Source: Candidatus Saccharimonadota bacterium
GTDB taxonomy: Bacteria > Patescibacteriota > Saccharimonadia > Saccharimonadales > Saccharimonadaceae
DNA length: 33,718 bases
Direction of reading: 5' to 3'
Assembly (NCBI GenBank): GCA_017404795.1
Contig: JAFRBR010000019.1
Span: forward strand, 1 to 33,718
Within the stretch, counting starts at the first letter, position 1; each line of letters opens with the position of its first letter. Of the stretch, positions 20,713 to 27,871 are shown piece by piece. The position numbers were made by a program, and so were the translations under genes. The notes below the pieces were generated by a model. That model had not been told where the DNA came from, searched no databases, and worked only from the letters and a program-made list of their open reading frames with translations.

Positions 20713-23700
20713 TTATAGCTTTTCTAATGAAATAGTAATATTGTCGCCGTTTAGTTTAGCGATTTCGTCGTGGGAGTAGTTCTGATTCTTGGTGAGTTCA
20801 TTGGTGTTAGTTTCGGATTTGATGAGGTCTGTATAGCCCTCTGGGGGGTCGATAGAGAGGGAGAGTTTAATCTGGTCGTCTTGGCGGAGGCCGGCGTGCT
20901 TGCGGGCGGATTGGATGGCGCGAATGAGTTCGCGAGCCTGTCCTTCCCTCTTTAACTCAGCGGTGAGAGTCTTGTCGAGAGTGAACTTGTTGGCGTTTTC
21001 TACTTGTTTGACGTTGACCTCATCAGCGATAATTTGTTCGTAGAAACTGTCGAGTTTGTCGCCGTCGTAAGTGAGTTTGGATAGAGGCTGGCGAATTTTG
21101 ATCTGGTCTTCGGTGTCGGACTTCTGCATGCGGAGAGCGAGGGCGTCGGTGATAATCTGGCGGGTTCTTTGCATGTTGTCCAAGATTTCGGTGTTAATTT
21201 CGCCGGCTGCAGGCCAATCTAAGAGGTGGACCGATTCTGTCTGGCCGGTCATTTTTTGATACAACTCTTCTGATAAGAAGGGGGTGAAGGGGGCGAGGAG
21301 TTTGGACAAATAAATTAATACATAGTGCAGAGTAGCGAAGGCCTGGAGTTTGTCCTGCTCGTCGTCGTTTTTGGAGAAGCGGCGGCGAGAGCGACGAACG
21401 AACCAGTTGGAGAGGTCCTCGATAAAGGGGATGACGCTGCTCAGAGCTTTAGGTAAATTATACTCATTCATGCCCTCAGTGATGTTGTTTCGGAGTTGAT
21501 AGATGCGAGAGATGATCCAAATATCCAGAGGGTTTAGATGAGAGCTCAAAACACTTCTTCCTCGGGACGGGTCGCTCGCGCCCGTCGTTACGGGGCTCGC
21601 GCCCTCATTCTCGGTCGTAACCTCCGAAAGCCCTCGGAATGAAGTGTTTTGGAGCTCTTCCGAATCTATGTTCTCTACCTCGGCGTAGGTGGTGAAGAAG
21701 TCGTAGACGTTCCAGATCATGGCGAGTTTGCGATGAGTGTCAGAGACGTCTTTGTCGAGGAGGGCGAAATCCTCGCCGGCACAGACTGGAGAGGATAATA
21801 GGAGTAAACGCAGGGCATCGGCGGAAAACTGGTCCATTAAGATATTGGGGTCGGTAAAGTTGCCGATGGATTTGGACATTTTGCGACCATCGTTGCCGGC
21901 GATGGTGCCGGTGGTGATGACGTTTTTGAAGGCGTTTTTGTGGCCCTTTTTAGCTTTGTCGCCAAAAGCGCCAATTTCGGCGAGAGCGGTATTGATGGCG
22001 TGGACATAATAGAACCAAGCGCGGACCTGTCCGACATATTCAACGATGAAATCAGCGGGGTAGCCCATTTCGAATTTTTGCTTATTTTCAAAGGGGTAGT
22101 GAAGCTGGGCAAAGGGCATGGAGCCGGATTCAAACCAACAGTCGAGAACCTTTTCGATGCGGGTGAAGTGCTCACCGTCAATATCAAATTCGACTTCGTC
22201 GATCCAGGGACGATGATAATCGTCTAATTCTATACCGGAGAGGTCTTTGAGTTCTTTGTAGCTGCCGACAACTTTGACGGTGCCTTTGTCGCCCTTCCAG
22301 ACCGGCATAGCGGTGGCCCAGAAGCGGTCACGAGAGAGGTTCCAATCGGGGGCGACTTCAATGTTATTGGCAAAACGACCGTGCTTGAGATAGCCCGGGA
22401 ACCAATTGATGTGCTCGTTTTGCTCGAGCATGAGGGGTTTTTGACCCTGAATATTAAAGAACCAAGATGGGAAGGCGCGATACATAACACGCTCGTTGCT
22501 ACGGGGATTAAAGGGATACTCGTGTTGGATGTATTCGATCTTGTAAATAATTCCCTGTTCTTCGAGGCATTTGGCGATGAATTTGTTGGCGGCCCAAATT
22601 TGGATGCCGGCGTCGTCAGTGTCACGCATACCTAAAGCATAGAGTTTTTTGGCGTATTCTTCTGTATAGTAGCCATTTTCATCTAGAGTGTCGACAAAAC
22701 TAATCTCGTCCTGATGGTCTAAATAAAGCTGATAATCATCTTCTCCGTAGGCGGGAGCGATATGAACAATGCCGGTGCCTTCTTCCTCGCCGACAAAGTC
22801 GGCAGTGAATACTTGACATTCGGTGCCGTCTAAAGATTCGTATTTGAGGCCGGCTAGTTCGTGACCTTTGAAGGTTTGTTCTGGTTTTTGGTCTGGGAAA
22901 AGGGTTTCAGCGCGTTTGACAGCCAGGATGAATTTTTCGCCATCGACATCGTAAATACCGTAGTCCATATCTGAGTTAACAGCTAAAGCCCTGTTAGCCA
23001 TCAGAGTCCATGGGGTCGTAGTCCAGGCCAATAAACACACAGAGGAATCGAAAATGTTTCTTCCTCGGGACGGGTCGCTCGCGCCCGTCGTCACGGGGCT
23101 CGCGTCCTCATTCTCGGTCGTAACCTCCGAAAGCCCTCGGATAGAAACATTTTCCGATTCTTCTATCTGTAACCAGAACTTGACGTAGACCGATGGGTCG
23201 GTGACGGTCTGGTAGGCGTCGTTGTCCATGGTGACTTCGGCTTTGGAAACAGGGGTGGCGAATTTGGTGTCGTACATTAAGACCTTGCGGCCTTCGTAGA
23301 TAAGGCCGGCGTCGTAGAGCTTTTTGAAGGCCCACCAGACAGATTCCATGAAATTTTTGTCCATGGTGCGATAAGCGCCCTTGAATTCGACCCACCGGCC
23401 GATGCGAGTGATGGTGTGCTCCCATTCGTCGCTGATTTCTTCCATGGATTTCTTGGCGGTCAAAATATAATCTTCGAGCGACCATTTGGTGCCGATATCT
23501 CTGCGGTCGGTGATGCCGAGCTGTTTTTCGACGTAATTCTCTGCTGGTAGACCGTGGCAATCCCAGCCCCAGACACGCTCCACGCGTTTGCCGTTCATGG
23601 TCTGATAGCGACCGACAACATCTTTAATGGTAGAGCCGAGCAGATGACCGTGGTGAGGTAAACCGGTCAAAAAAGGAGGGCCATCGTAAAAAACGTAAGA

Positions 23701-25962: not shown

Positions 25963-25971
25963 ATTATATCA
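25963..25971 (-). promoter_or_regulatory. Extended -10 promoter of mscS, leaderless
   Basis: Minus-strand TGA-TATAAT ends 6 nt before ATG 25956 and overlaps the stop codon of the upstream gene. Confidence 0.7.
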
Positions 25972-26218
25972 CATAATATAAAACTTCGTTGATGAGCGGG
26001 AGGCTTTTGCCGCGCCAGAGAGCGCGAACGTCTCCCTGCTCGCCGATGGCCAGGATGGTAGGGTACTCGACAATATCATAAGCTTCGCAGAAACTCGGGT
26101 TTTCGTCGGGGTTCATGGTTTCTATTTCTCGACCAGTCTGGCGACGGAAGTTTTCGAGCCACTCGTCTACAGAACGAGTGTAATCTTGGTTGTCACGGTA
26201 GACGCAAATTACTCTCAT
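25964..26218 (-). CDS. Thioredoxin-fold protein without CxxC
   Basis: This 84-aa protein matches thioredoxin in its strand order and in the cis-proline loop (CEAYDIVEYPTILAIGEQG). The active-site CxxC is absent: the matching place reads RDNQDYTRSVDEW and the only cysteines are at ~5 and ~44. It should not act as a classic dithiol reductase; a binding or single-Cys role is possible. The start ATG overlaps the nrdR stop (ATGA), so the two are translationally coupled and share the ftsZ-nrdR transcript. It could be linked to ribonucleotide reductase redox, but this is inference. Confidence 0.7.
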   Translation of the reverse strand: MRVICVYRDNQDYTRSVDEWLENFRRQTGREIETMNPDENPSFCEAYDIVEYPTILAIGEQGDVRALWRGKSLPLINEVLYYVI

Positions 26219-26664
26219 TTTTTACGTTTTTGCTCTTTTAAAATGTTTTCGAAATCTTCCAGGGTCTTGAATTCGCGGAAAACAGAGGCGAAACGGACAT
26301 AAGCGACTTCGTTGACCTCAGCTAGGACATCTAGAACGGCTTCGCCAATTTGGCGGCTAGTGATTTCGTCGGTATTATAACTATAGAGAATATCTGAGGC
26401 ACGGTTGACTACTTCTTCGACCTCGAGCTCGGAATTAAAGAATTTGCCGACGCTACGACGGACGGCGAGAAGGAGTTTGTCGCGATCGAAAATCTCTTTG
26501 TTGCCACTGCGCTTAGTGACGGTGAGTGGTGGCATTTCAATCCGTTCATAAGTGGTAAAACGGTGGCCATCAGATGATTCACGACGCCGACGAATCATGG
26601 TGCCGTCGACAGTTTCGCGGCTTTCTAGAACTTTGCTGTCTCCGATTCTAAATTGGCGTTCCAC
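26215..26664 (-). CDS. nrdR: NrdR-type repressor lacking zinc-ribbon cysteines
   Basis: NrdR represses ribonucleotide reductase genes when bound to (d)ATP. In this 149-aa protein the N-terminal frame is clearly NrdR (DSKVLESRETVDGTMIRRRR, then HRFTTYERIEMPPLTVTKR) and the ATP-cone (~45-135, RSGNKEIFDRDKLLLAVRRS, ending EVAYVRFASVFREFKTLEDF) is complete. But the four zinc-binding cysteines are gone: the CPxC position reads RQFR and the second pair reads SSDG. GTG at 26664 has AGGAG 8 nt upstream, and no frame upstream restores a CPxC. It follows ftsZ by 15 nt in one operon. Confidence 0.92.
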   Translation of the reverse strand: MERQFRIGDSKVLESRETVDGTMIRRRRESSDGHRFTTYERIEMPPLTVTKRSGNKEIFDRDKLLLAVRRSVGKFFNSELEVEEVVNRASDILYSYNTDEITSRQIGEAVLDVLAEVNEVAYVRFASVFREFKTLEDFENILKEQKRKK

Positions 26665-26679
26665 CCGCGTATCTCCTGA

Positions 26680-27837
26680 TTATTTCTTCTTTTTCTTAAG
26701 ACGCTCGCGAAGAGAGGGGGGGATGTCCATGTCGTCGTCGTTTTCGTGGGCTGGCTCCTCTGGAGTGGGCTCACTCTTGATGGAATCCCACATGTTGGAC
26801 TTATTATCAAGAGCGAAATCTTTGGGCTCGGAAGAGGGCTTTTCGTCTTTAATTGGCTCGGGCTCTGACTGAGCGTAATTGTCGTTGTAATAATCGGAGT
26901 CGAAACCGGTAGCGACGACGGTAACGACAATTTCGTCTTCTAATTCTGGACGGATAGAAGCACCGAAGATGATGTTGGCGTCTGGTGAAACGGCACCGGT
27001 GATGACCTCGGCGGCTTCTTGGACTTCGCTCATGGACATGTCGTAACCACCAGCTACAGAGAAGAGCACGCCACGGGCGCCTTCGATTTTGACCTCAATT
27101 AATGGTGACTCTACGGCTTGCTGAGCAGCAATAACGGCGCGATTCTCACCAGAGGCGCGGCCAATACCCATGAGGGCGGAGCCGGCGTTTTTCATGATGG
27201 ATTTGACATCGGCGAAGTCTAGGTTGATTAAAGAATGCTCGGTGATAAGCTCGGAAATGCCCTGAACGCCTTGGCGTAAGACATCGTCGGCGATTTTGAA
27301 AGTCTCTAAGAGCGGGGTGCGGGGGTCGATGGTCTGGAGTAAGCGGTCGTTCGGAATGGTGATAAGGGCATCAACTTGACGGGCGAGTTTGTCGATGGCG
27401 ACATCGGCGTTGGCTCGGCGGCGAGCGCCTTCAAAAGTGAAGGGCTTAGTGGCTACACCTACGGTTAGAATATCTTTGTTTCGAGCCTCTTCAGCAACGA
27501 TGGGGCCGGCACCCGAACCGGTACCACCACCAGCACCGAGGGTGATGAAGGCCATGTCGGCACCCTCTAGAGCCTTGGCGATTGCTTCCCTGCCTTCTTC
27601 GGCGGCTTCGCGGCCTTTTTCTGGATCGCCACCGGCACCGAGACCTTTACCAATATGAACCTTGGTGTCGGCTGGTGAATGGTGCAAGGCCTGTGCATCA
27701 GTGTTGATAGCCACAAATTCAACGCCAGAAAGACCCACTTCTTTCATACGTTCAACTGCGGAACCACCTGCGCCACCTACACCCACAACTTTAATACTAG
27801 CTTTACTTTCCACCTCTGTTGGTTTGACTTCTGGCAT
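26680..27837 (-). CDS. ftsZ: Cell division GTPase FtsZ
   Basis: FtsZ polymerises into the division ring. From ATG 27837 (MPEVKPTEVESKASIKVVGV) the protein is 385 aa with the nucleotide-binding VGGAGGSAV (~20-28) and the tubulin signature GAGGGTGSGAGP at 101-112. NTDAQAL and the T7-loop region with NLDFADVK follow. A linker rich in Glu, Pro and Asp (~315-370) leads to the C-terminal peptide DIPPSLRERLKKKKK, the variant of the FtsA/SepF/ZipA-binding tail. GAGG lies 9 nt before the ATG; a 21-codon longer frame covers the promoter and is not used. It is the first gene of ftsZ-nrdR-thioredoxin-like. Confidence 0.97.
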   Translation of the reverse strand: MPEVKPTEVESKASIKVVGVGGAGGSAVERMKEVGLSGVEFVAINTDAQALHHSPADTKVHIGKGLGAGGDPEKGREAAEEGREAIAKALEGADMAFITLGAGGGTGSGAGPIVAEEARNKDILTVGVATKPFTFEGARRRANADVAIDKLARQVDALITIPNDRLLQTIDPRTPLLETFKIADDVLRQGVQGISELITEHSLINLDFADVKSIMKNAGSALMGIGRASGENRAVIAAQQAVESPLIEVKIEGARGVLFSVAGGYDMSMSEVQEAAEVITGAVSPDANIIFGASIRPELEDEIVVTVVATGFDSDYYNDNYAQSEPEPIKDEKPSSEPKDFALDNKSNMWDSIKSEPTPEEPAHENDDDMDIPPSLRERLKKKKK

Positions 27838-27871
27838 AATTTTACCTCGCTTTAAATGTATAATTAATGAT

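Follow-up and report, generated by a model that had tools for sequence, protein, structure and literature searches.

The nrdR locus and its product

The window, that is, the whole stretch of 33,718 nucleotides that was analysed, carries on its minus strand an nrdR reading frame of 149 amino acids with a GTG start at 26664 and a stop codon at 26215-26217. The features of the locus are:

26680-27843, minus strand: ftsZ, directly upstream of nrdR (profile matches, gene order in relatives)
26673-26677, minus strand: Shine-Dalgarno sequence AGGAG of nrdR, inside the 15-bp gap between ftsZ and nrdR and 8 nt before the start (read from the sequence)
26215-26664, minus strand: nrdR, cysteine-less (ORF list, Pfam and TIGR00244 matches, alignment)
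26536-26664, minus strand: ribbon (DNA-binding) domain, residues 1-43, predicted to be metal-free (AF2 model of cysteine-less sequences; best PDB matches are NrdR ribbons)
26644-26661, minus strand: lost first CxxC site, residues 2-7, ERQFRI (alignment)
26581-26592, minus strand: RRRR motif, residues 25-28 (alignment; phosphate contacts in the Streptomyces coelicolor complex)
26566-26577, minus strand: lost second CxxC site, residues 30-33, SSDG, with a conserved DG turn (alignment)
26263-26523, minus strand: ATP-cone, residues 48-134, with the nucleotide residues K51, R52, E57 and K63 kept (Pfam match, alignment)
25964-26218, minus strand: thioredoxin-like ORF of 84 amino acids, the downstream partner of nrdR, its start overlapping the nrdR stop (ATGA; conserved neighbour)

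The product matches the Pfam families ATP-cone (PF03477; 1.8e-15, 57.7 bits, gathering score 25.8) and Zn_ribbon_NrdR (PF22811; 5.5e-10, 39.5 bits, gathering score 27.2), in both cases above the gathering score. The match to the latter begins at model position 10, and thus the first CxxC is missing. The match to TIGR00244 (NrdR) is 1.1e-33 with 116.4 bits, slightly below the curated cut-off of 124.65; other cysteine-less NrdRs score about 114-145 bits, and several of them exceed the cut-off. Both to this model and to solved NrdRs the protein matches almost over its full length, as expected for descent within the NrdR family. A missed start cannot restore the CxxC, because the stop-to-stop frame adds only about 5 residues upstream, directly after ftsZ. 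No second NrdR was found by profile search in the source genome (692 kb, 94% complete), and the number in the source genus is one per genome. The closest named relative of the protein, 93% identical, comes from a Candidatus Saccharibacteria genome from yak reticulum. The ORF is most probably the true NrdR of the source organism. Among the papers searched, none treats NrdR and Saccharibacteria together.

In the ATP-cone the nucleotide residues K50, E56 and K62 (S. coelicolor numbering), whose roles come from the S. coelicolor protein (PMC9110341), are invariant in 61/61 cysteine-less NrdRs. Phe takes the place of Tyr128, which switches with the ATP/dATP state in the S. coelicolor protein, in 46 of the 61, among them the present protein (residue 129, nt 26278-26280). 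The thioredoxin-like ORF has an EYPTI motif and no CxxC, and the CxxC was found in none of 69 thioredoxin-like relatives adjoining nrdR. Elsewhere on the contig the IleRS gene (minus strand) contains two near-identical copies of a peptide, GLSEVTTENE(D/G)ASPVTTGASDPSRGR, at about 21560-21672 and 23063-23175. This duplication looks like an inserted repeat, and the peptide was absent from every locus retrieved.

Extent and origin of the cysteine loss

The original prediction described the protein as an NrdR without the cysteines of its zinc ribbon, named close relatives with all four cysteines together with a sequencing error as what would speak against this, and proposed an alignment with NrdRs from other Patescibacteria and a search for NrdR boxes upstream of nrd genes. 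The N-terminal 43 residues indeed contain no cysteine. Among 148 NrdRs, their cysteines counted as read from the DNA, the ribbon domain has none in 61, at least four in 87, and one to three in no case, which excludes a sequencing error, as does the same state across relatives. All 61 clade members lack all four cysteines of the two CxxC pairs, and thereby the four zinc ligands that define a zinc ribbon. In the 38 genus members matched by the Zn_ribbon_NrdR model the match starts at position 9-10 every time. The cysteine-less state is also found in 6 further named contigs besides these 61 loci. The close relatives are thus themselves cysteine-less, and within the family the cysteines are confined to more distant genera.

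The nrdR gene was found in 57 of 60 genomes of the source genus and in 146 of 151 genomes sampled from the family. Cysteines are kept in the NrdRs examined from other Saccharimonadales families and from other Patescibacteria, and among 80 loci from a species-level genome collection every readable NrdR outside the clade has them. In a maximum-likelihood tree of the ATP-cone, from which the ribbon columns were left out, 31 sampled cysteine-less proteins lie on one side of one branch with moderate support (85/91), corresponding to one change, and this clade nests inside the Saccharimonadales NrdRs. The sequences are most simply accounted for by a single, clade-wide loss of all four cysteines, and several independent losses are unnecessary given the tree. 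A general loss of zinc proteins was considered as the sole cause and rejected: in the source genome the cysteine clusters of Fpg, of NrdD and of the helicase encoded in the window are retained.

The common arrangement among cysteine-bearing members of the order is ftsZ, a gap usually of 100-300 bp, nrdR and nrdJ. All 61 cysteine-less loci have ftsZ, nrdR and the thioredoxin-like gene in this order on the same strand with tight spacing. Several cysteine-bearing members of the family already have the latter order without nrdJ, which makes it probable that nrdR moved close to ftsZ first and that the cysteines were lost later.

Ribonucleotide reductase genes and NrdR boxes

NrdA/NrdJ was found in 0 of 10 genomes of the source genus, and no NrdB was found in the genus. 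An NrdR without any ribonucleotide reductase (RNR) to control, as these first scans could be read, was discarded when class III NrdD was found in 20/20 genomes tested; it is the only RNR found in the genus. With a strict two-box pattern, each of the 20 cysteine-less genomes tested, none of which has NrdAB, shows a box pair upstream of nrdD. A separate glycyl-radical ORF is likewise preceded by a pair in 13/13, and a reversed control pattern had no match in the same 20 genomes. The positions left free by the pattern still read A-G-(T/C)-G-T (A at 9, G at 12, T at 13). The spacer is mostly 16-17 bp; NrdR box pairs at RNR promoters typically have 14-17 bp. In the nrdD promoters examined box 1 lies between the -35 and -10 sequences (TTGACA-17-TATAAT or close; TTGCAT-17-TATACT in the source genome) and box 2 downstream. 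At the glycyl-radical gene the promoters examined have the -35 between the two boxes, with box 2 placed between -35 and -10.

In many genomes of the cysteine-less clade NrdD ends just before the glycyl-radical segment (...CPHCGRLEGDLPFERIKNA); this segment, FERLRRITGYLVG, is carried by a protein of its own, about 145-152 amino acids long. In the source genome, G000, the two genes are:

G000:C6, L319:683-2866, plus strand: NrdD without the glycyl-radical segment
G000:C19, L303:1133-1570, minus strand: separate glycyl-radical protein of 145 amino acids, with its own NrdR box pair

Three genomes (G027, G034 and G069) encode the separate protein in addition to a full-length NrdD. GrcA is a spare part for pyruvate formate-lyase, and the separate glycyl-radical protein beside NrdD resembles this relation.

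One genome, G114 (98% complete), encodes NrdD but lacks NrdR, and the region upstream of its readable nrdD is free of boxes; it is the only clear case of this kind. Three incomplete genomes of the genus (59-90%) have boxes and no nrdR match, most simply explained as assembly gaps. In three cysteine-bearing relatives (G085, G106 and G107) nrdR is itself preceded by a box pair, at a distance of 70-120 bp. No box pair was found on the source contig, hence autoregulation of nrdR seems to have been lost. The cysteine-less genome G139 (L309-L314) has eight box-pair matches, some of them near mechanosensitive-channel-like and ABC-transporter-like genes, and its regulon is possibly enlarged.

The box pairs could be bound by some other protein. 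A second, cysteine-bearing NrdR was considered: a divergent paralogue is common in the order, and none was found above the cut-off in the source genus. This NrdR-like protein, seen in L149-L152, L154, L155 and most of the Saccharimonadales genomes searched, has about 135-160 amino acids, a WRRRR-like motif and a weak ATP-cone; the copy in L151 has lost most of its ribbon cysteines.

Function of the ribbon domain

In the S. coelicolor NrdR-DNA complex Arg12, Arg26-29 and Arg37 touch phosphates, and Asp15 and Arg17 read bases (PMC9110341). At these positions all 61 cysteine-less proteins have K/R (12), E (15), R (17), RRRR (26-29) and R (37); E at position 15 is also usual among cysteine-bearing relatives. 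RRRR is invariant and RFTTYER strongly conserved over many genera. The pN/pS ratio from 561 pairs, uncorrected and with synonymous sites saturated, is 0.074 for the N-terminal domain against 0.105 for the ATP-cone. The ribbon domain is under strong purifying selection, somewhat tighter than the cone.

These observations bear on the suggestion in the original prediction that the protein may be an ATP-sensing partner instead of a repressor. DNA binding would have been lost with the zinc, and the well conserved ATP-cone would act on another protein, for example NrdD. In favour of this, none of the four ligands is left, and a zinc ribbon usually does not fold without the metal. However, the DNA-contact residues are invariant although the cysteine positions have changed, selection on the N-terminal domain is at least as strong as on the cone, and box pairs are kept in 20/20 genomes in a genus whose only NrdR is the cysteine-less one. 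We consider this suggestion very unlikely to be right.

The residues at the cysteine positions follow a pattern. Cys3, Cys6, Cys31 and Cys34 of the S. coelicolor protein align to Glu2, Phe5, Ser30 and Gly33. Across the clade the first position is E, M, S, D and others; the second is F, Y, L or I in 60/61; the third is S, T or A in 60/61; and the fourth is G in 59/61, preceded by Asp. This is patterned substitution and no drift. A metal might have been kept with Asp, Glu, His or Ser as ligands instead of the four cysteines, and Asp32 in the DG turn and Glu2 could in principle bind one; at the four cysteine positions the clade shares neither a conserved His nor a conserved acidic residue, which makes this very improbable. 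It is also hard to believe in a decaying NrdR whose ribbon degenerates after loss of the ancestral nrdRJ operon. The cysteines were lost in a lineage without nrdJ beside nrdR and with nrdR tight behind ftsZ, but some cysteine-bearing members already have this order, so that the change of order alone is no cause of decay, and the low pN/pS, the conserved arginines and RFTTYER, the patterned replacements and the conserved operators all speak against it. An artefact, where a wrong start, a frameshift or an assembly error hides the cysteines, can be dismissed: single-base changes could make some of the codons Cys, but no support for such an error was found, the state recurs in the 61 loci and the 6 further contigs, and there is no room upstream.

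The fold was predicted with AF2 from seven cysteine-less sequences only. The model has strands at residues 11-17, 23-29 and 35-41 followed by the ATP-cone, with a mean pLDDT of 81.9; when the first 45 residues were modelled alone, the block-mean pLDDT was 91-95 across residues 11-40. A Foldseek search with the isolated domain gave NrdRs, solved or modelled, as all 13 best matches (TM to 0.73, E from 4.9e-3), and VIA-align gave Z 4.4-4.8, which is too low to argue from alone. Such modest absolute scores (E about 5e-3, Z below 5) are expected for a domain of 45 residues. The same three-stranded sheet is thus predicted to form without metal ligands; it should be noted that AlphaFold leaves zinc out of its models and that NrdR structures in the training set may underlie the prediction. 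The clade-wide, patterned loss, the confident model and the purifying selection support the idea, also in the original prediction, that the fold may be held another way.

The kept contacts and the operators suggest that the DNA-binding domain now works without metal. We give a probability of roughly 0.8 to the reading that the protein is a functional repressor which binds NrdR boxes through a ribbon without metal; that it binds DNA, holds no zinc and represses is inferred. The protein is an NrdR by descent and operators, and by its missing ligands it is not a zinc ribbon. It is likely that this whole clade of Saccharibacteria uses a metal-free zinc-ribbon transcription factor as its NrdR, with a sequence-specific domain re-stabilised by a hydrophobic plug and the DG turn, and that this factor controls a class III RNR; in many species the glycyl-radical segment of that enzyme is encoded separately under a like operator.

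The mechanism which we propose starts from one loss event, by which the cysteine-less NrdR would descend from zinc-ribbon NrdRs. The residue patterns suggest that ordinary protein packing would replace the zinc site, by a bulky hydrophobic residue at the second cysteine position together with Ile7-Gly8, and that a tight DG beta-turn would stand in for the second knuckle. On the model of the S. coelicolor and E. coli proteins the three-stranded sheet bearing Lys11, Glu14, Arg16, Arg25-28 and Arg35 would still dimerise and bind box pairs, and would do so when the ATP-cone holds ATP plus dATP. At high dATP the protein would then cover the -35 and -10 sequences and repress nrdD and the separate glycyl-radical gene.

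A naturally occurring form without zinc, spread over a clade and with its operators intact, would set DNA recognition apart from the structural contribution of zinc, and the part played by the metal could be tested on cysteine-bearing and cysteine-less NrdRs, which lie ready for comparison. Control of RNR would also have outlived a change of RNR class in the reduced Saccharibacteria genomes.

Cysteine-bearing NrdRs of other Saccharimonadales (e.g. L117, L143 and L106) are roughly 40-54% identical to the present protein and have the same type of box; they differ in having four cysteines and usually adjoin a gene for an RNR of about 940 amino acids without NrdB (class II-like, NrdJ). S. coelicolor NrdR (PDB 7P37, 7P3F and 7P3Q; PMC9110341) shares the domain order, the nucleotide residues of the ATP-cone and the DNA-contact residues, and likewise has its boxes in pairs over the promoter, spaced by about three turns of the helix. 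It has two zinc-binding CxxC pairs and an nrdRJ operon with its own boxes, whereas the cysteine-less protein has no zinc ligands and its gene lies tight behind ftsZ with no box of its own found. Escherichia coli NrdR (PDB 9FVR, 9FXK and 9GEX; PMC12176259) is homologous almost over the full length and the isolated ribbon has a similar fold (TM about 0.72), but it has four cysteines and bound zinc (PMC12176259). Precedents for a zinc domain which keeps its role after cysteine loss are the zinc and non-zinc forms of ribosomal proteins S4 and L31 (PMC3087516, PMC7363858) and the cysteine-less C-terminal repeats of topoisomerase (PMC9369019). Unlike NrdR none of these is a sequence-specific transcription factor, and the ribosomal non-zinc forms are often paralogues alongside the zinc forms, whereas the cysteine-less NrdR has replaced the zinc form.
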